From positions 3,038,001 through 3,102,000 of the forward strand of contig NZ_CP080419.1 of the NCBI RefSeq assembly GCF_019457595.1: 64,000 nt of DNA, in the 5' to 3' direction. This stretch comes from Shewanella psychrotolerans. Its GTDB lineage: Bacteria; Pseudomonadota; Gammaproteobacteria; Enterobacterales; Shewanellaceae. Below are positions 6,531-55,785 of the stretch, in pieces. The notes under the pieces are model-generated. The model was given only the letters and a program-made list of their open reading frames with translations. It was not told the origin of the DNA and did not search any database. Numbering within the stretch: the stretch's first letter is position 1; each line of letters begins with the position of its first letter. A program made the position numbers and the translations under genes.

Positions 6531-6623
6531 TGAAACCAAGCTTAGCGGCACCACCTCCAGTCTCCCGCTAGTGCTCCTGCAGATATTCTCCTCTTAATAT
6601 CCAAACACAGACCTAGTTTATAA

Positions 6624-6649
6624 AAAAACGCAGCCTTAGCTGCGTTTTT
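6624..6649 (-). terminator. Terminator of the S8 protease gene (bidirectional shape)
   Basis: Stem ACGCAGC/GCTGCGT with loop CTTA is flanked by A7 on the left and T5 on the right. It can therefore stop transcripts from both sides. It sits 25 bp after the protease stop. Confidence 0.85.
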
Positions 6650-6673
6650 GGATTAATTAATAAAACTATTTAT

Positions 6674-8497
6674 TTAGAACACAACGGTTGCATCAGCAGT
6701 ACAAGTTGAAGTACCAGCATCACAGGCTTTATAAGTGTATGTTCCGCCGCCCTTACTACTGATAGTGTCTGTATAAGTGCTGTTAGCAGAAGTTGTGGTA
6801 ATTTGATTACCATCACGATAAACATCAACATTAGCGCCAGCTGCACCGCTGAAGGTTAAATCAACTTTCTTCACGCCTTTGCTTTTATAGCCATTAGCAG
6901 CAATAGAGAAATCTCCACCAGTTCCACCACCATTATCGCCACCAGCGCAACCATTGGCAGTGAGGTATGCATCTGCCGCAGCGGCCTGAACGATACCGTA
7001 ACCGAAGTAGACATCTTTACCTGCTGCACCACCATCAAGAGCGGTTGCTTTCAGCGCTTCACGGATCTCACTACCAGTACATTGGTTATGATTAGACCAC
7101 ACAAGCGCAGCAATACCTGATACCGCTGGCGTTGCCATTGAGGTTCCACTCATAAAACCGTAATCGGCAGTGCTAATGTCAACCGTGACAGACGTTGCCG
7201 CCGTTAACGCCGCGCGATCCTCTTGCGCCGTGCCCACTGCGGGAATAGTTGTCGCATTAGTATCGCCTAATGTACCGTACAACATCCCTGGTTCATTGTT
7301 GATGATAACAGCACCGATACCACCAGAGTTTTCACAGTTAGCCACTTTATCGTGGAAAGAAATAATACCGCGGTCGATAATACACACATTCCCGTTGGCA
7401 CCAGCATCTGTAGCTTCGGCGGTTCCCATAAAGTATGTGTTACCAGTTACTGTGCCTGAATTTTCCATTGCACTACTCGCGACATAACCACCATCAGCAG
7501 TCAGATTGGAGGCCGTAGCCATGCCAGCAGGATAAGTTGACAGCGTATCAACACCTCCAGCAGTAACTTCAACACAGATAGTTTCATCTATGGTGGCTCT
7601 TTTACCACGACCAGATGTACATGAAGGATACTGAGAGAAATCTGCGATATTATTATTCGCATCATTTGCACCCACCATCATCACTGATGGATAGCCAGCA
7701 GGATATGAACGAACGCTATTACCATCGTTACCGGCTGCGGCAACAACTAAACCACCAGCATCAACGAAAGCTTGAAACGCATTGGACTCCGTAGAATTAG
7801 CACCGCCACCACCTAAACTCATGCTAATGATGTTCGCACCCGCAACACTACACAGATTAGCCGCATGTGCTAGATCTGATGAATAGCCCCATCCTTCAGC
7901 ATTAAACACTTTAATGATGTGCATATCAACGCCAGGCGCCATACCAACAACACCTATATTATTATCGGCCGCACCAATTGTACCCGCGACGTGAGTGCCA
8001 TGTGGGCCACCATTTTCATTCCAATTACCGGTACCAGAATCATTATTACCGCTAATATTATTCCAAACAAAATCAGGATTAGATGCATCAAGCCCGGAAT
8101 CAATGATACAGACCTTCATCCCCGCAGCGCTGTTAAAGCTAATTTTATCGGCTTGAGATTGATACACTGCATAGGGAGTAATCTGCTGTGTCATTGGATT
8201 ACCAGCATCGTCACTAAACCCCATTAAGCGGCGACGTTGATCTGCTTCAACCAATTTGACATGAGGATTGTTTAGTAACCCTTTCACCTGCGCCAAATCT
8301 TTACCGCTGAATGTCGCAGCAATAAAGCCATTGCCATCGACATGGATCTGCGCGCCAAGCTTCTTTGCTAACGCCTTAACGACACCTTTATTGCCATTTT
8401 CCACTTGGATGATGTAACGGTCATCATCAGCAAAAGCCTGTGTTGAAATGCCAACGCTAATTGCCATCACGGCACTTGCTAATTTAGCTAACTTCAT
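6674..8497 (-). CDS. Secreted subtilisin-like serine protease (S8) with PA domain
   Basis: The 607-residue pre-pro-enzyme carries a signal peptide (1-23), an inhibitor I9-type propeptide (about 25-85) and a subtilase domain. The catalytic residues are Asp133 (IIDSGLD), His166 (HGTHVAG) and Ser453 (GTSMATPAVSG), with oxyanion-hole Asn257 (AAAGNDG). A protease-associated (PA) insert occupies about 340-440, between the His and Ser blocks. A Gly-rich linker at about 525 leads to a C-terminal beta-sandwich resembling an FnIII or PKD module. The protein is expected to be secreted and to digest proteins outside the cell. A good ribosome binding site (GGAGAGA) precedes the ATG at 8497. Confidence 0.92.
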   Translation of the reverse strand: MKLAKLASAVMAISVGISTQAFADDDRYIIQVENGNKGVVKALAKKLGAQIHVDGNGFIAATFSGKDLAQVKGLLNNPHVKLVEADQRRRLMGFSDDAGNPMTQQITPYAVYQSQADKISFNSAAGMKVCIIDSGLDASNPDFVWNNISGNNDSGTGNWNENGGPHGTHVAGTIGAADNNIGVVGMAPGVDMHIIKVFNAEGWGYSSDLAHAANLCSVAGANIISMSLGGGGANSTESNAFQAFVDAGGLVVAAAGNDGNSVRSYPAGYPSVMMVGANDANNNIADFSQYPSCTSGRGKRATIDETICVEVTAGGVDTLSTYPAGMATASNLTADGGYVASSAMENSGTVTGNTYFMGTAEATDAGANGNVCIIDRGIISFHDKVANCENSGGIGAVIINNEPGMLYGTLGDTNATTIPAVGTAQEDRAALTAATSVTVDISTADYGFMSGTSMATPAVSGIAALVWSNHNQCTGSEIREALKATALDGGAAGKDVYFGYGIVQAAAADAYLTANGCAGGDNGGGTGGDFSIAANGYKSKGVKKVDLTFSGAAGANVDVYRDGNQITTTSANSTYTDTISSKGGGTYTYKACDAGTSTCTADATVVF

Positions 8498-12131: not shown

Positions 12132-12974
12132 ATGAACAAACAATTAACGATTAAAACAATCATAAAACCACTAACGGTATTAATTAGTGTCGGTCTCTTC
12201 AGCGCCTTACTATCTGGCTGTACCAACCCAAACACCCCAGCAGGTGAAGAAGGTTATGTATTCGAAAAACCGAGAATTTTTGGTTCTGGTGGATATCGCG
12301 GCAGTCTGATTGGACCTAGCAACTATGGGGTATCATTATGGCGTAACGAAATTATTAATATCGATATGCGGCCAAATACCTACACCGAAAACTTCAAGAT
12401 ACTGGCCAATGATGATCTCAACATCAGTTTCAATTTTCATGCAGTCATCGCTATCAAATCAGGCTCAGTCAGAGAAGTGGTTGAACAATATGGCGCAGAA
12501 AACTGGTACATCCGCTTTGTGCGTGAAACCTTCAGAACCTATGTCCGCGATGAAGTGCAGCGCTATGATAGTGTTGCCCTGAAAGAAAACCGTTCAAAAA
12601 TCGCTGAATCGGTCGAGATAAAACTCAAAAACTACCTTAAAACATCACCGTTTCAGCTCAGAAACGTAGTAGTAGGCAATATCAACTATCCAGAGATTGT
12701 GGCGATTGCGGTGGAGAAAAAACTTGCCGCGCAGCAGCTGCTCTCTGAGAAAGAAACCCAAAAAGAGATCGCGCAAAAAGATGCCGAGATCCGCATTGAA
12801 GAAGCCAAAGGTATCGCCGAGGCACAAAAGATTATCAACACCACCTTAACCCCGAATTACCTGCAACATGAAGCCATTAATGCCCAATTAAAAATGGCTG
12901 ATTCGCCCAATCATACAACGGTATATATCCCTGTTGGAACCAACGGTATTCCGCTGATTAAAGGCGCGAAATAG
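12132..12974 (+). CDS. SPFH (band 7) domain lipoprotein
   Basis: The 280-residue protein has a lipoprotein signal with lipobox LSGC (Cys30). The SPFH domain spans about residues 40-230 (DDLNISFNFHAVIAIKSG; VVGNINYPEIVAIAVEKKLAAQQ). A charged helical tail rich in Glu, Lys and Ala (KETQKEIAQKDAEIRIEEAKGIAEAQK) follows, typical of stomatin/prohibitin-like proteins that oligomerise at membranes. It is probably tethered to a membrane through its lipid and faces the periplasm, which is less usual for the family. A RBS (AGGGA) precedes the ATG. The GST gene follows after 21 bp. Confidence 0.82.
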   Translation: MNKQLTIKTIIKPLTVLISVGLFSALLSGCTNPNTPAGEEGYVFEKPRIFGSGGYRGSLIGPSNYGVSLWRNEIINIDMRPNTYTENFKILANDDLNISFNFHAVIAIKSGSVREVVEQYGAENWYIRFVRETFRTYVRDEVQRYDSVALKENRSKIAESVEIKLKNYLKTSPFQLRNVVVGNINYPEIVAIAVEKKLAAQQLLSEKETQKEIAQKDAEIRIEEAKGIAEAQKIINTTLTPNYLQHEAINAQLKMADSPNHTTVYIPVGTNGIPLIKGAK

Positions 12975-18571: not shown

Positions 18572-19051
18572 ATGTCTATTTATGATTTTTCAGTAACAAG
18601 GATTGATGGTAGCGAACAACCAATGAGTGACTTTAAAGGTAAAGTCTTGCTTATCGTCAATACTGCCAGCAAGTGTGGATTTACACCCCAGTACAAGGCC
18701 CTGCAGGCTTTGTATGATTCTTATGGCCCTGAGCACTTTGCTGTACTGGGGTTTCCTTGTAATCAATTCGGTAAACAGGAGCAAGGAGACGAGTCGCAGA
18801 TAAGTCAGTTTTGTGAACTCAATTTTGGGGTTAATTTTCCACTATTTGCAAAAATAGAGGTCAACGGAGACGGTGCTAGCCCACTGTATCGTTACTTAAA
18901 GAAACAAGCTAAAGGTCTATTAGGTAGTGAATCGATTAAATGGAATTTCACTAAATTCTTAGTCAATAGTGACGGAGAGGTCCTTGAGCGATTCGCCCCA
19001 ACAACCACACCCGAATCTCTTGAACAAAAGATAAAATCTTTACTCAATTAA
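18572..19051 (+). CDS. Glutathione peroxidase (thioredoxin/glutathione peroxidase type)
   Basis: The 159-residue enzyme has the active-site cysteine in NTASKCGFTP, the conserved block GFPCNQFGKQEQG, and the WNFTKFLV motif supplying the Trp and Asn of the catalytic tetrad. It would reduce hydrogen peroxide or lipid hydroperoxides in the cytoplasm. Bacterial members with Cys in place of Sec often prefer thioredoxin. GGGAGAG lies just before the ATG. The small-RNA array begins about 100 bp downstream. Confidence 0.9.
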   Translation: MSIYDFSVTRIDGSEQPMSDFKGKVLLIVNTASKCGFTPQYKALQALYDSYGPEHFAVLGFPCNQFGKQEQGDESQISQFCELNFGVNFPLFAKIEVNGDGASPLYRYLKKQAKGLLGSESIKWNFTKFLVNSDGEVLERFAPTTTPESLEQKIKSLLN

Positions 19052-19140
19052 TCCAAACAGATAGCAAAAATATGGCAATAAACTGAAATTAATTTGTTTA
19101 TTTTTTGAACTTTATTGACGTTACTGGCTCAAATAATTGA

Positions 19141-19245
19141 ACGCGAAGAATTGATTTTTCATGTTCATCATTCTCCCTGGGACTTCTAGCGCGGTCCCCT
19201 TGATCTTCCTAGATCAATGGCAACTAGATAGGTTGCCTTTTTTTA
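19141..19245 (+). ncRNA. Putative small RNA, unit A of a five-member family
   Basis: This diverged copy has a leader with TTTTTCATGTTCATCATTCTCC, split here as TTTTTCAT, GTTCATCAT (19163-19171) and CTCCCT. Hairpin 1 is GGGAC/GTCCC (19179-19198), with CTAGCGC in its loop (19186-19192). Hairpin 2 is TTGATC/GATCAA (19200-19217). The terminator is GGCAAC/GTTGCC with seven T (19219-19244). No coding frame of note runs through it. The 5' end is approximate; AATAAT near 19133 could be the -10 element. Confidence 0.65.
19219..19245 (+). terminator. Rho-independent terminator of sRNA unit A
   Basis: Stem GGCAAC/GTTGCC with loop TAGATAG is followed by T7. Confidence 0.85.
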
Positions 19246-19361
19246 TATTCCCAATAAAAACACTTTAAAACAACATCTTATATGGAGATAGAAATATCCA
19301 TATAAGATAATTTGAAAAATTTAAACTATTTTCACATCATTTACTGAACTTCTTTAAAAAT

Positions 19362-19520
19362 TGCGACTCTGATAATAGGTAACAGATTTTTTCATCATTG
19401 TTTGTTCATCATCTCCCTTTGGTGACCCTATCGGTCCCAAGAGCATTATCCAAAGCTAGCGCATATGGCTAATGACTCTAAAACACTTTGTTTATGGCAA
19501 CCTTTGGTTGCCATTTTTTT
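19362..19520 (+). ncRNA. Putative small RNA, unit B
   Basis: The block starts at TGCGACTCTGATAATAGG; GATAAT (19371-19376) is a likely -10 element, so the RNA may begin near 19383. The leader holds GTTCATCAT at 19404-19412, then CTCCCT. Hairpin 1 is TTGGtGACC/GGTCCCAA with one bulged base. Hairpin 2 is CATTAnCC/GGnTAATG, with CTAGCGC in its loop (19456-19462). The terminator is GGCAACC/GGTTGCC. Unit C and unit D are near-identical copies. Confidence 0.7.
19496..19520 (+). terminator. Rho-independent terminator of sRNA unit B
   Basis: Perfect stem GGCAACC/GGTTGCC with a TTT loop is followed by A and T7. Confidence 0.88.
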
Positions 19521-19608
19521 GTGCTAAACCTTTTTTATTCTAAACCATTGAAGCCGTATTGAAATAAAACTCAATTTTTTACGATAAGGTGGGAACTAAC
19601 CGTTAATC

Positions 19609-19772
19609 TGCGACTCTGATAATAGGTAACAGATTTTTTCATCATTGTTTGTTCATCATCCCCCCTTTGGAGACCCTATATAGGTCCCAAGAGCATTACC
19701 CAAAAGCTAGCGCATATGGCTAATGACTCTAAAACACTTTGTTTATGGCAACCTTTGGTTGCCATTTTTTTT
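19609..19772 (+). ncRNA. Putative small RNA, unit C
   Basis: It begins 247 bp after unit B and repeats it almost exactly. GTTCATCAT lies at 19651-19659, followed by CCCCCCTTTGG where B has CTCCCTTTGG. Hairpin 1 is changed on both sides of the loop (loop CTATATA, where B has CTATC) but keeps its stem, TTGGaGACC/GGTCCCAA. Hairpin 2 and the terminator are conserved. Confidence 0.7.
19747..19772 (+). terminator. Rho-independent terminator of sRNA unit C
   Basis: Same GGCAACC/GGTTGCC stem as unit B, with A and T8 behind it. Confidence 0.88.
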
Positions 19773-19875
19773 GTGCTAAACCTTTTTGTTCTAAACCTTT
19801 TTTGTTCTAAACCATTGAAGCCGTATTGAAATAAAACTCTATTTTTTACAATAAGGTGGGAACTAACCGTTAATC

Positions 19876-20034
19876 TGCGACTCTGATAATAGGTAACAGA
19901 TTTTTCATCATGTTTGTTCATCATCTCCCTTTGGTGACCCTATCGGTCCCAAGAGCATTACCCAAAGCTAGCGCATATGGCTGATGACTCTAAAAACACT
20001 TTGTTTATGGCAACCTTTGGTTGCCATTTTTTTT
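19876..20034 (+). ncRNA. Putative small RNA, unit D
   Basis: It begins 267 bp after unit C. The leader has GTTCATCAT at 19916-19924 and CTCCCTTTGGTGACC. Hairpin 2 carries a change from TAATG to TGATG in one arm. The terminator ends 2 bp before the stop codon of the convergent aminopeptidase gene. Units C and D also share about 90 bp upstream of the block, so the duplicated segment includes the promoter region. Confidence 0.7.
20009..20034 (+). terminator. Rho-independent terminator of sRNA unit D
   Basis: GGCAACC/GGTTGCC stem with TTT loop is followed by A and T8, abutting the end of the M1 aminopeptidase gene. Confidence 0.87.
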
Positions 20035-20036
20035 AG

Positions 20037-21821
20037 CTAGTTGGCAAACTGCTTATCTAATTGCACGACTAAAGAGGGGTGATAACCGCTCCGCGCCTTG
20101 GCATAGATAGCAGCTAACTCAGAGTGATAGCCAGCAAGCTGCAACTCGGTAAATAGCGGGCGCACAAACTTACCACGACCAATTTTCACCAGATAGCGCT
20201 CAAGCGCAGGTAGTACAAGGTCGTAGTGATTACGGATCGCCACTCGATACCAATCACAGGCTATTTCGGCGTTAGTTGAGTGGGTAAAATCAAACACTTC
20301 GTCTAACTGCATCAATGTTTGTTGATCGACACTGCCAGGCAAGCTACCCAAAAAATACTGCCAATGATGTACGCGCCAATCTTGGGTATTTTGTTTATCG
20401 ATTTTGCCTCCCATTTGCCAATCCGCCAGCAGCGCATCCACTTTATCTAAGCTGTCTGAGCTAGGCGGCGTAAACCAATAGGGCATCCCTCTTCCATATA
20501 CCCACTCTTGCAACTCTTGCTCACTGATCTTGTCGCCATGTTCAACTAACAAGGTCTGCTTTGCATAATCAACAAAAGTTTCGGTGGTGATAGCTTCAAA
20601 AGCAAAGTGGCAAACATATTGATAAAGAAACTTATCGAATGATTCACGGCCAAGACGCTTTTCTAAGTCGTGGACAAACATCGACGCTTTATCATAGGTA
20701 AAGCGGTTAAACGCATCATTTGGGTCGCCCGCTTGCACGTTGGCGGGTAACGTCTGCGCCGCTAACGGCATTAATGCCAACTCCTCTTTTAAGCGGCCAT
20801 ATTCCAGTACGACCTCAAGCTGAGCCTGCTCTTGGCCAAATACCGCTTCAACGATGCGGTTGGTGAAATAGGTAGTAAAGCCTTCATTGAGCCACAAGTC
20901 GCGCCAAGTGGCGTTACTGACCAAATTCCCCGTCCAAGAGTGCGCGAGCTCATGGGCAACGGTTGACACTAAGCTCTTATCGCCTGCTATCAATGTTGGG
21001 GTCATGAATGCGAGCCTTGGGTTTTCCATACCACCAAAAGGAAAGCTCGGGGGGAGCACAATCATGTCATAACGCCCCCACGGATAGGGGCCAAGCAGCG
21101 ATTCAGCAATCTCGACCATCTGCTCGGTATCTTCAAACTCCTTTACCGCTGCCTGTAATAGTTCAGGCTCTGCATACACCCCAGTTCTTGGACCTATTGC
21201 ACCAAACTGTAAATCCCCCACCGCAATGGCCATTAAATGAGTTGGAATAGACTTTTCCATTTCAAAAGAAAAACGGCCAGTTAATGGCGCATCGGCATCA
21301 TTCATGGCGCTCATCACTGCGCGCATCCCCTTAGGCACCTCGACAGTCGCGTTAAAGGTGATACGGGCTTTGGGGCTGTCTTGCAGCGGTATCCAACTGC
21401 GGGCATTAATCGGCTGCGACTGACTAAAAAGAAAGGGTAACTGTTTGCCGCTGGTTTGCTCTGGCGTTAACCACTGCAAACCTTGGGCATCGGCAGAAGT
21501 ACGGTAGCCAATGGATACCCACTTGGTTGCCGAGAGTAAGCGAATATTGAGCCGCTCACCACGAATAGGGTCTTGCTTATCCATGCTAAATGTTAACGCT
21601 TGCCCTGCATCATCAATAACGGATTCAATGGTTAATGTGCGGCAATCTAGATACAGCTCTCGGCACTGAGCATCGAGGTAGTCGAGTTGTAACTGCGCGG
21701 TCCCTAACAACTGCTTTTGTTCAAACCGTACCGACAGCGCAAGATCCAAATGGGTGACTCTGACATGGTCGACATTCGCAAACGAGTGATGGTCTTGATT
21801 ATTATCCCATTGCTTAGACAC
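20037..21821 (-). CDS. M1 family metallopeptidase (leukotriene A4 hydrolase-like aminopeptidase)
   Basis: The 594-residue enzyme has the exopeptidase motif GGMEN (263-267) and the zinc site HELAH (290-294) with third ligand Glu313 in WLNEGFTTYF. The downstream tyrosine lies in RFTYDKAS. The C-terminal helical domain (about 460-590) matches the LTA4H/cold-active aminopeptidase subfamily known from marine gammaproteobacteria. It removes N-terminal residues from peptides. There is no signal peptide, so it is cytoplasmic. It is a single gene flanked on both sides by members of the small-RNA family. Confidence 0.9.
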   Translation of the reverse strand: MSKQWDNNQDHHSFANVDHVRVTHLDLALSVRFEQKQLLGTAQLQLDYLDAQCRELYLDCRTLTIESVIDDAGQALTFSMDKQDPIRGERLNIRLLSATKWVSIGYRTSADAQGLQWLTPEQTSGKQLPFLFSQSQPINARSWIPLQDSPKARITFNATVEVPKGMRAVMSAMNDADAPLTGRFSFEMEKSIPTHLMAIAVGDLQFGAIGPRTGVYAEPELLQAAVKEFEDTEQMVEIAESLLGPYPWGRYDMIVLPPSFPFGGMENPRLAFMTPTLIAGDKSLVSTVAHELAHSWTGNLVSNATWRDLWLNEGFTTYFTNRIVEAVFGQEQAQLEVVLEYGRLKEELALMPLAAQTLPANVQAGDPNDAFNRFTYDKASMFVHDLEKRLGRESFDKFLYQYVCHFAFEAITTETFVDYAKQTLLVEHGDKISEQELQEWVYGRGMPYWFTPPSSDSLDKVDALLADWQMGGKIDKQNTQDWRVHHWQYFLGSLPGSVDQQTLMQLDEVFDFTHSTNAEIACDWYRVAIRNHYDLVLPALERYLVKIGRGKFVRPLFTELQLAGYHSELAAIYAKARSGYHPSLVVQLDKQFAN

Positions 21822-22240
21822 TGATGATTCCTTCTTTTAGTGGGCAGAGCGGTTGAGGATATTGTAGCCATCTCACCCGACAATACCATTGAAATTGACT
21901 GTGTTAGGTGAAGACAAAACACCAGCGCATATTTTATACAACCATAACCCAGCCTTTCTAGCGCCAATACCGACGTTGCGCTTTATGATGAAAAACCATA
22001 AAAATAAGATAGACTCCAGGCTTGAGGGTTAGACCGCACAATCTTAAGCCTCCCAACTCAACAATCACTGGCTGCGTACTGTACAGCCAATAAAGCCCCT
22101 AGCTCAAAATACGAACTTATAATCTACGCTTAAAACTCAAGATTAAAGCCCAAGTCGTTTTTCAGTTTCACTATTCGTCTTAGTTAATTATTTAAAAAAA
22201 TCAAAAAAATTTAAAAATAATCGGAACTAATTAGAAAAAG
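21822..22240. other. Intergenic region upstream of the M1 aminopeptidase gene
   Basis: It should carry the aminopeptidase promoter. From about 22180 it becomes very A-rich before sRNA unit E. No coding frame or strong hairpin was recognised. Confidence 0.4.
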
Positions 22241-22406
22241 TGCACTCTGACTATATGAACAGAATTTGCAGCAGTTGAAAATTCACTTCTTCAACTGGTT
22301 ATATTTTTCATCGTTCATCATCATTCCCTTGAGATAGTTTCTAGCGCAACTATCATTAGATTCCGAATTGGAACTTGTAGCGACCTTATTAAGGTCGCTT
22401 TTTTTT
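22241..22406 (+). ncRNA. Putative small RNA, unit E
   Basis: GCACTCTGACTATATGAACAG (first 20 bases from 22242) aligns with the block start of units B-D, with TATAT as a -10 candidate. An extra 5' hairpin CAGTTGAA/TTCAACTG lies at 22272-22297. The leader holds TTTTTCAT, GTTCATCAT (22313-22321) and TTCCCTT. Hairpin 1 is GATAGTT/AACTATC with CTAGCGC in the loop (22341-22347). Hairpin 2 is TTCC/GGAA. The order leader, two hairpins and terminator is that of units A-D, while the stems have diverged in sequence. Confidence 0.65.
22379..22406 (+). terminator. Rho-independent terminator of sRNA unit E
   Basis: Stem AGCGACCTTA/TAAGGTCGCT is followed by T7 or more. Between here and 22675 only a weak CCTCC/GGAGG hairpin followed by GCGGTTTTT (22642-22665) was seen. 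Confidence 0.88.
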
Positions 22407-22675
22407 ATCTAAAATTTGGCTGAGACGAGCGAGAGTTAGCTCTATCTGAACTCGTTCGCATTAAACAAGCAGAGACTACAAATGATACTGATGGATATCA
22501 CACAGAGTTTTCGCTCTCTTAGATTTGGCCTTATGAAAAACTGGTTGGACATTTTCGAGTTAAAACTTTAACCCTATACATGTGAGTGTCAGATTAATAT
22601 TTCTATGTCTAACGGCGCCATAAAAGGCAAAGCATCAGCAACCTCCAGCCCGGAGGGCGGTTTTTGCAGGCCTTG

Positions 22676-27452: not shown

Positions 27453-28403
27453 TTAAAACTTGTGTTCTAAACCAACACCGAAGTATTTATCGTCAGTATC
27501 TTTACTTTCCATAGAAGTGTTCGTATAGAATGCCAGCACTTTAGTTGGCTTACCTAACTTATAATCAATACCAACTGACCAAGAATCACCTTTATCTTCC
27601 ATGTCTTGATACTGACCTTTTAATACTGCCGCATCAATTGTGTAAGATGCGCTAAATAGGTAACCCGTCTTGCTGTCTGCACCGACAACCTCAGAACCAT
27701 CTTTCTTATAAGTCTCTTCTTGCTGCTGATACATACCGCCAAGCTTCAGGCCTGCAACCTTACCTTGAATGGTGGCACGAACAACTTCATAGCCTTTTAC
27801 GTCAGCATCATAGGCAATAGAGGCGAATACTGGGGTCTTTTTCAGCTTGGCATCACCGTACATAGCGGCAACACTGAAACCGTCTTGTCCATACTGAGAG
27901 CTTGCGCCTTCAGCAGCATAGGTCACACCTAACTTAAAACCACTCCAATTAGGCGTCATATAAGTCGCTGTTTGTTCAATGCGGTTTTCACCCTTGAACA
28001 AGTTTTTCAAATCACCAGACAGGTCGTTGAACTGATCAACTTTACCTTGTGAAATCTTAAGCATGGTGTCGTTACGACCAACAGAAACCGCACCGAAGTT
28101 ACCTTTTACACCAACGAACTGGTTACGAGCCTTGAAGTTTTCCTTAACGTCATCACCAGTGTCCACTTCATACTCAACAGTGTAGAAAGCTTCCAGCGAG
28201 CTGCTTAGCTCGAAAGCCCCTTTCACACCAAAGCGAGAAGCGTTGCTCTGAATAGTCGTCGTTGCATCACCATCTACATCGTTAGATTGAGCCGTTACGT
28301 TTAGTTTGCCGTAAACTGTCAAAGGATCTGCAGCGTGTGCAGAGGCTAAAGTGGCAGAGGCTAGCGCAGAAGCAAGTAGAGTTTTACAAAAAACGTTCAT
28401 CAT
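27453..28403 (-). CDS. Gram-negative general porin
   Basis: The 316-residue protein has a signal peptide (NVFCKTLLASALASATLASAHA) and begins its mature part with DPLTVYGKLNV. A 16-strand porin pattern follows, with FEGENRIEQT-type loops and a C-terminal phenylalanine (FGVGLEHKF). It forms a channel for small solutes in the outer membrane. Two ATGs stand side by side: AAGGA is 4 bases from the first (28403) and 7 from the second (28400), so either may be used. Its place next to phoBR suggests phosphate-related control, but no good Pho box was found upstream. The first nine bases, ATGATGAAC, are complementary to the leader of all five sRNA units. Confidence 0.9.
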   Translation of the reverse strand: MMNVFCKTLLASALASATLASAHAADPLTVYGKLNVTAQSNDVDGDATTTIQSNASRFGVKGAFELSSSLEAFYTVEYEVDTGDDVKENFKARNQFVGVKGNFGAVSVGRNDTMLKISQGKVDQFNDLSGDLKNLFKGENRIEQTATYMTPNWSGFKLGVTYAAEGASSQYGQDGFSVAAMYGDAKLKKTPVFASIAYDADVKGYEVVRATIQGKVAGLKLGGMYQQQEETYKKDGSEVVGADSKTGYLFSASYTIDAAVLKGQYQDMEDKGDSWSVGIDYKLGKPTKVLAFYTNTSMESKDTDDKYFGVGLEHKF

Positions 28404-54906: not shown

Positions 54907-55785
54907 ATGAGCAAAGCGTTCCAAACAATTGGCTTAATTGGCAAACCACACCATACTGGCACACACAAAACCTTAAAGCGCTTGCATCATTGGCTAACGA
55001 TGCAAGGTCTTGATGTTTATGTTGAAGAAAGAATTGCCACTGAAATTGGCACTCACGTCAAATCCGTTGACCTGCTACAAATTGGCGAATATTGCGATCT
55101 TGCGATTGTTGTTGGTGGCGACGGTAATATGCTCGGTGCCGCACGTGTATTAGCACGTTTCGACATAGGCGTTATTGGGGTCAACCGTGGTAATTTGGGT
55201 TTCTTAACGGACTTAGCACCCGATAACTTTGAAGAAGCCTTAGGTAAAGTATTACAAGGGGATTATGAAACTGAGCATCGATTCTTACTCGAATCAGAGG
55301 TACATCGCCACGGCATCGTAAAATCGAGTAATACCGCAGTTAATGAAACTGTACTCCATCCTGGTAAAATTGCTCATATGATTGAATTTGAAGTCTATAT
55401 TGATGACAAGTTCATGTACAGCCAACGCGCTGATGGAATGATCGTTTCAACACCCACAGGATCGACAGCGTATTCACTATCGGCAGGCGGTGCGATTCTC
55501 ACCCCGAATTTAGAAGCCCTGATCTTGGTGCCTATGTTCCCCCATACACTCTCGTGTCGCCCAATAGTCGTCGATGCCTGTAGCACCATCAAACTGGTGG
55601 TTTCTCCCGATAATGGTGACACATTAGAAGTGAGTTGTGATGGACATGTTGCCCTGCCAGTATTGCCTGGTGATGAAATTATTATCAGTCGCAGCCAAGA
55701 GCGCCTGCGCTTAATCCATCCAAAAGGCTATAACTACTTTCACGTATTGAGAAATAAGCTGGGATGGGGAAGTAAACTGTTTTAA
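54907..55785 (+). CDS. nadK: NAD kinase
   Basis: The 292-residue protein has the same length as E. coli NadK. Motifs include [51 protein letters not shown] and [13 protein letters not shown]. It phosphorylates NAD to NADP with ATP. The start ATG at 54907 gives [14 protein letters not shown]; upstream in-frame sequence belongs to the antisense of grpE. The gene is divergent from grpE. Confidence 0.95.

Follow-up and report, generated by a model that had tools for sequence, protein, structure and literature searches.

A tandem family of probable sigma-E small RNAs in Shewanella with predicted outer-membrane porin targets

The region between a glutathione peroxidase gene and a convergent M1 aminopeptidase gene of Shewanella psychrotolerans contains four complete transcription units in tandem (A to D), and a fifth (E) lies past the aminopeptidase gene; all five are within the window, by which we mean the whole stretch of 64,000 nucleotides that was analysed. 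It is likely, judging from their sequence features, that these units encode RpoE (sigma-E)-dependent, trans-acting antisense small RNAs (sRNAs) that block translation of outer-membrane proteins (OMPs) under envelope stress, and the tandem array probably shuts off outer-membrane porin production under such conditions. In Enterobacteria and Vibrio the envelope stress response has an RNA arm made up of sigma-E sRNAs, and the outer membrane of Shewanella carries extracellular electron transfer. In the main texts of the literature searched we found no published description of this unit family and no sigma-E sRNAs in Shewanella. A survey of S. piezotolerans WP3 predicted 209 sRNA candidates (PMC5471319); the terms glutathione, aminopeptidase, tandem and RpoE are absent from the available main text of that paper, and some units may be in its supplementary tables.

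In the mechanism that we propose, RpoE would transcribe the units individually, each having a GAACTW-N16-TCWRA promoter, and every RNA would end at an intrinsic terminator and its long U tail, with a predicted length of ∼105–150 nt. The unpaired leader, which has an almost invariant UUCAUCAU..CCC core and differs between units at its 5′ end, would pair with the Shine-Dalgarno and start region of porin, OmpA and OmpW mRNAs and block their translation, probably with the assistance of Hfq. Two traits of Hfq-type sRNAs, an unpaired seed and intrinsic termination followed by a long U tail, are both present in the units, and S. oneidensis has Hfq (PMC3575234). Unit A is the usually single-copy and most conserved type, and the B type has been duplicated in tandem as a whole promoter-RNA-terminator cassette, to differing copy numbers, which could raise the RNA dose per RpoE pulse and let the leaders specialise.

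Organisation of the units

The features of the locus are as follows; all sRNA starts are predicted.

18572–19051, + strand: glutathione peroxidase gene (PF00255), the upstream flank, conserved across most of the genus
19107–19133, + strand: unit A sigma-E-type promoter, GAACTT-N16-TCAAA (strict motif scan)
19140–19244, + strand: unit A sRNA, with leader, hairpin 1, hairpin 2 and terminator 19219–19237 plus T run (folds, covariance model, A-type genes across the genus)
19162–19178, + strand: unit A core seed TGTTCATCATTCTCCCT, complementary to the Shine-Dalgarno sequence and start codon of target mRNAs (conserved alignment columns)
19186–19192, + strand: CUAGCGC loop of unit A hairpin 1, whose stem is GGGAC/GTCCC (folds)
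19346–19372, + strand: unit B sigma-E-type promoter, GAACTT-N16-TCTGA (motif scan)
19379–19521, + strand: unit B sRNA, with two hairpins and terminator 19494–19514
19381–19395, + strand: unit B 5′ end, a 15 nt perfect complement to porin L167 across its start codon and the codons next to it (AUGAAAAAAUCUGUU)
19593–19619, + strand: unit C sigma-E-type promoter, GAACTA-N16-TCTGA (motif scan)
19626–19772, + strand: unit C sRNA, with the same 5′ pairing element as unit B and terminator 19745–19765
19860–19886, + strand: unit D sigma-E-type promoter, GAACTA-N16-TCTGA (motif scan)
19893–20034, + strand: unit D sRNA, with terminator 20007–20027 and a 3′ end adjoining the stop of the convergent aminopeptidase gene
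20037–21821, − strand: M1 aminopeptidase gene, leukotriene A4 hydrolase type (PF01433, PF09127), the convergent downstream flank, conserved across most of the genus
22224–22250, + strand: unit E sigma-E-type promoter, GAACTA-N16-TCTGA (motif scan)
22257–22406, + strand: unit E sRNA, with seed GTTCATCATCATTCCC at 22313–22328, loop CTAGCGC and its own terminator (folds, covariance model)
27453–28403, − strand: porin gene (Porin_4), a predicted target, with start AUGAUGAACG and a 10-nt perfect complement to the unit E leader

The array, promoters included, spans 19107–20035. The initial annotation had described it as four units, three near identical and one diverged, and the alignments agree: B, C and D repeat one another almost exactly in direct orientation (repeats B and C, spacer included, share 236 identical positions, with 8 mismatches and 26 gap positions) and A is diverged. 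Each B/C/D cassette of ∼250–267 bp comprises promoter, RNA, terminator and spacer. The same annotation referred to five units while listing four; the fifth is real, being unit E (22224–22406), which was recovered by the promoter scan and also by the A-type covariance model described below, but it was missing from that list.

Every unit opens with an unpaired leader, (G)UUCAUCAU(CAU)..CCC, followed by one or two stem-loops that display CUAGCGC in a loop and then a terminator hairpin with a run of at least seven Ts. The hairpin stems that had been proposed earlier are correct by our folds, and a terminator scan recovered the four expected Rho-independent terminators of the array at 19219, 19494, 19745 and 20007; it gave a total of five terminator-like sites, whereas shuffled sequence averaged 0.6. 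All of the units are more stable than their dinucleotide shuffles, with z scores of −2.8 (A), −4.2 (B), −4.5 (C), −3.9 (D) and −3.0 (E). The longest forward reading frame within a unit is 24 aa and is broken between copies by single-base indels, in keeping with the earlier statement that no convincing coding frame is present.

Complementarity of leaders to outer-membrane protein starts

We measured the longest perfect complement between a leader and the interval from −40 to +25 of each gene start, with start codons picked by our own Shine-Dalgarno rule. The OMP set of the window genome consists of 30 genes (3 porins, 19 TonB receptors, 7 small barrels and yfaZ), and the background of 332 other gene starts drawn from 400 kb of stretches together with the window; the counts cover all 29 OMP loci plus yfaZ in this genome, and all 63 porin loci of 25 genomes. 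The longest complements are to porin L167 (15 nt, AUGAAAAAAUCUGUU, opposite the B and C 5′ ends), OmpW L191 (13 nt), porin L166 (12 nt) and OmpA L189 (11 nt), and the protein families of L189, L191 and L167 were confirmed by a separate check. Complements of at least 11 nt occur at 4 of the 30 OMP starts (two porins, OmpW and OmpA) but at only 2 of the 332 others (p = 5e-4), and those of at least 10 nt at 7 of 30 versus 9 of 332 (p = 9e-5; rank test p = 0.0011). The TonB receptors, with complements of 5–10 nt, show no clear excess. A part of the OMP excess arises because exported proteins tend to start with AUGAAA, and 11 background genes with such starts reach complements of 7–14 nt. We also note that the best background gene, which encodes an SPFH/Band 7 protein with a lipoprotein-like start (12132–12974, + strand), has a 14-nt perfect complement to the unit B/D leader.

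Shuffled leader sets reach a porin match of at least 15 nt in 1 of 2000 trials in the window genome and one of 18 nt in 0 of 2000 in genome G041, in a test that scored part of the porin set and in which the third porin (27453–28403) also stood in the 334-gene background. Among the 25 genomes with their 63 porin loci, the best porin match is 18–19 nt in 11, 15 nt in 3, 10–12 nt in 9 and 7–8 nt in 2, the weakest being those of G080 and G009 at 7 and 8 nt. The 18–19 nt matches are between unit A (GAAUGUCUUUUUCAUGUU) and a porin starting MKKTFISASV, and because they all involve a single leader type they do not count as independent cases. Strong pairing is lineage-bound, in that a single leader type accounts for 13 of the 14 genomes that reach at least 15 nt. 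In G041 the predicted duplex between unit A and this porin has an energy of −42.1 kcal/mol and lies over the Shine-Dalgarno sequence and start codon. Whole-duplex energies, scored for 17 of the 29 OMP loci, separate OMPs weakly, with p = 0.04 for unit A, 0.22 for B, 0.15 for D and 0.28 for E. Searches of eight genomes with long antisense patterns (20 and 22 nt, up to three mismatches) returned the sRNA genes themselves and four three-mismatch places elsewhere.

It is conceivable, though we think it unlikely, that these are sRNAs with the same expression logic whose main job is something other than OMP repression, for example through action of the CUAGCGC loop on a protein or another RNA, with the complementarity to start regions a by-product of the UUCAUCAU core. 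The loop does not vary in any of the aligned sequences, 14 of the A type and 37 of the B/E type, and porin pairing is weak in some species, both of which fit such a role. However, the perfect porin-start matches of 15–19 nt exceed those of shuffled leaders, and porins, OmpW and OmpA make up the top four among the OMP targets. The loop complement GCGCTAG is found at 2 of 333 background starts and 0 of 17 OMP starts, and the loop is therefore not an obvious start-site seed. OMP repression by the leaders continues to be the reading that we prefer.

Promoters, covariation and distribution in Shewanella

A sigma-E-type consensus, GAACTW-N16-TCWRA, is present upstream of all five window units, and on the + strand of the window the strict motif occurs at 19107, 19346, 19593, 19860 and 22224 only, which are the five units. 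Across the 71 named loci together with the window, and counting units with at least 300 nt of upstream sequence, 154 of 212 have the strict motif no more than 290 nt upstream of the seed, compared with 16 of 2928 control positions. Promoters of the S. oneidensis RpoE regulon have the form GAACTT-16/17-TC.., among them those of rpoE, rpoH and degQ, and the bamE promoter in the same list begins GAACTA (PMC4336711, in the portion available). Genome-wide, the narrower form GAACTT-N16-TCTRA shows no enrichment, with 3 matches versus 8 for the reversed control. A single further strict motif is located on the − strand of the window at 55413, within a nadK-like frame and ∼560 bp upstream of a minus-strand grpE-like gene (both genes named by eye); this is possibly a chance occurrence.

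These promoters bear on two further explanations. Because the units follow the peroxidase gene on the same strand they might belong to the neighbouring genes as cis-acting leaders, attenuators or 3′ UTR RNAs, but each has its own sigma-E-type promoter and terminator, the next gene is convergent and unit E is located past the aminopeptidase gene, making this very unlikely. The adjacent glutathione peroxidase gene would likewise suit sRNAs under the control of RpoE2, the second ECF sigma factor, which responds to oxidative stress. We regard this as highly improbable, as neither the array nor unit E contains an RpoE2-like TGATC...CGTA sequence, and the peroxidase described as RpoE2-dependent in the accessible part of PMC4336711 is PgpD, which is periplasmic and shares an operon with hemH2.

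Base changes among the units support the folded structures. A MAFFT alignment of 15 B-type sequences has 89.3% of cells paired and a covariation score of 0.145, versus 0.088 when shuffled. In a larger set of 114 model-aligned B-type units (107 distinct) there are 579 double-change cells versus 210.5 in shuffles, with 0 of 500 shuffles reaching 579, and the covariation score is 0.377 versus 0.124 shuffled, with slid controls at or below 0.091; this alignment was made with the model and is biased towards the model's structure. A covariance model built from 14 A-type sequences only, and run on the window, finds unit E at 4.5e-7 and B, C and D at ∼1e-4. Over the whole genome (4,368,735 bases) just the five units stand clear of noise, B to D reaching E ∼0.01 and no better at that scale, and the next match has E = 1.2; there are no dispersed unit copies above noise elsewhere in this whole-genome search. 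This covariance modelling, which the initial annotation had called for, revealed no coding or IS-related repeat. No Rfam family matches the units at gathering thresholds in a search of the whole window, and in 19050–20060 at a relaxed E ≤ 5 the best matches, RmaA and DapZ, were rejected as far below their own gathering scores.

As multicopy RNAs with several hairpins the units bear some resemblance to protein-sequestering RNAs of the CsrB/RsmY kind, but GGA triplets number just five in 19050–20040 and two in 22200–22420 and are not repeated within each unit, nor is there an Rfam match, and this assignment is hardly credible.

In the collections searched, Shewanella is the one genus in which we found the family. 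The A-type gene is present at E ≤ 0.001 in 29 of 394 genomes of the order, all 29 of them in the window's genus, and none of the 20 non-matching genomes listed is a member of the genus. The A-type core DNA pattern identified 71 stretches among 84,980 species genomes, and 71 of 71 are labelled Shewanella. The peroxidase/aminopeptidase neighbourhood is kept in most loci. Thirty-two loci are complete from peroxidase to aminopeptidase (31 of the 71 stretches plus the window, the rest being ended by locus or contig ends or having no detected flank), and these contain 2 (11 loci), 3 (10), 4 (5), 5 (2), 6 (3) or 7 (1) units. An extra unit past the aminopeptidase gene occurs in at least 16 of the 71 named loci (17 with the window), many loci ending too early to show one. 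As regards possible concerted evolution of the copies, 49 of 99 B-type units have their nearest relative within the same array, and median identity is 0.79 within arrays versus 0.51 between them. That the units are mobile or IS-related (MITE-like) repeats that happen to carry terminators, as tandem near-identity might suggest, is scarcely conceivable given the absence of copies above noise elsewhere in the genome, the conserved peroxidase-aminopeptidase locus across the genus and the covarying stems.

Several individual loci depart from the common arrangement. The upstream flank is not universal, because at one locus (L013, in G009) an ABC ATPase-like gene (named by eye) replaces the peroxidase gene in its usual place. 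Shewanella corallii (L104) has three tandem A-type units at 6549–7073, and the normally single A type can therefore also be amplified. Two loci (L023 and L032, in G036 and G005) have additional sigma-E-promoted units with another leader, of the AAGAC...GTCTTGT type, beside the other types.

With own promoters and terminators, compensatory changes, no Rfam match, no long shared frame and no dispersed copies, the units do behave as an unrecognised multicopy sRNA family, as had been suggested at the outset. The sRNA reading is supported; the sigma-E promoters, the invariant loop, the porin-start pairing and the genus-wide amplification had been missed.

Beyond the basic proposal of RpoE-dependent antisense sRNAs, we tentatively put forward the notion of an evolving antisense battery. 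One RpoE signal might fire several adjacent siblings, each transcribed on its own, the shared core hitting many OMP mRNAs and each 5′ end being tuned to one porin start, B and C to one porin in the window species and unit A to the MKKTFISASV porin, with 18–19 nt, in a whole clade. Each species would gain and lose copies and leader sequences, and in this way set how strong its envelope stress response is and where it is aimed; the invariant CUAGCGC loop could serve as a second functional site. A conserved locus with 2–7 tandem units per species is a natural series on why bacteria amplify regulatory RNAs, whether for dose, redundancy or division of labour, and the 18–19 nt porin-start matches make the predicted target directly testable in a genetically tractable genus.

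Comparison with known sRNA systems

The units resemble MicA and RybB, the sigma-E sRNAs of Enterobacteria, in their sigma-E-type promoter, an unpaired 5′ leader directed towards OMP translation starts and an intrinsic terminator, and the MicA core UCAUCAUCCCUG resembles UUCAUCAUUCUCCCUG of unit A. They differ in having no Rfam match to either, in their arrangement as 2–7 tandem units plus unit E, and in being found in Shewanella only. Covariance models for MicA, RybB and VrrA give no match at E ≤ 5 in 19050–20060 and none at gathering score in the window. The Shewanella locus is flanked by glutathione peroxidase and M1 aminopeptidase genes, whereas micA is located between luxS and gshA (PMC1804206).

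VrrA and MicV of Vibrio cholerae share with the units sigma-E control, repression of OmpA and porins, and redundant siblings (PMC2628432, PMC7602753), all three being predicted for the units. Unlike VrrA, whose gene lies between vc1741 and vc1743 (PMC2628432), the Shewanella units have no Rfam match to that family, and a tandem arrangement is not described for VrrA or MicV in the available portions of these reports (PMC2628432, PMC7602753). The units would thus be a functional counterpart of MicA, RybB, VrrA and MicV, and not family members by the Rfam models nor, for MicA, by locus.

Multicopy sRNA siblings with a shared core are also represented by Qrr1-5 of Vibrio, which have sigma-54 promoters and a quorum-sensing role; the Shewanella units have no Rfam match to these. 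LhrC1-5 of Listeria monocytogenes are multicopy RNAs of one type, induced by envelope stress, with an own promoter per copy and additive copies (PMC4132741), stress induction and additive action being predicted for the units. LhrC differs in being under the two-component system LisRK, in targeting a cell-wall adhesin and in belonging to a Gram-positive organism, and the Shewanella units have no Rfam match to it. Nonetheless, in its tandem, separately promoted layout under predicted envelope stress control the Shewanella array appears most like LhrC of Listeria.
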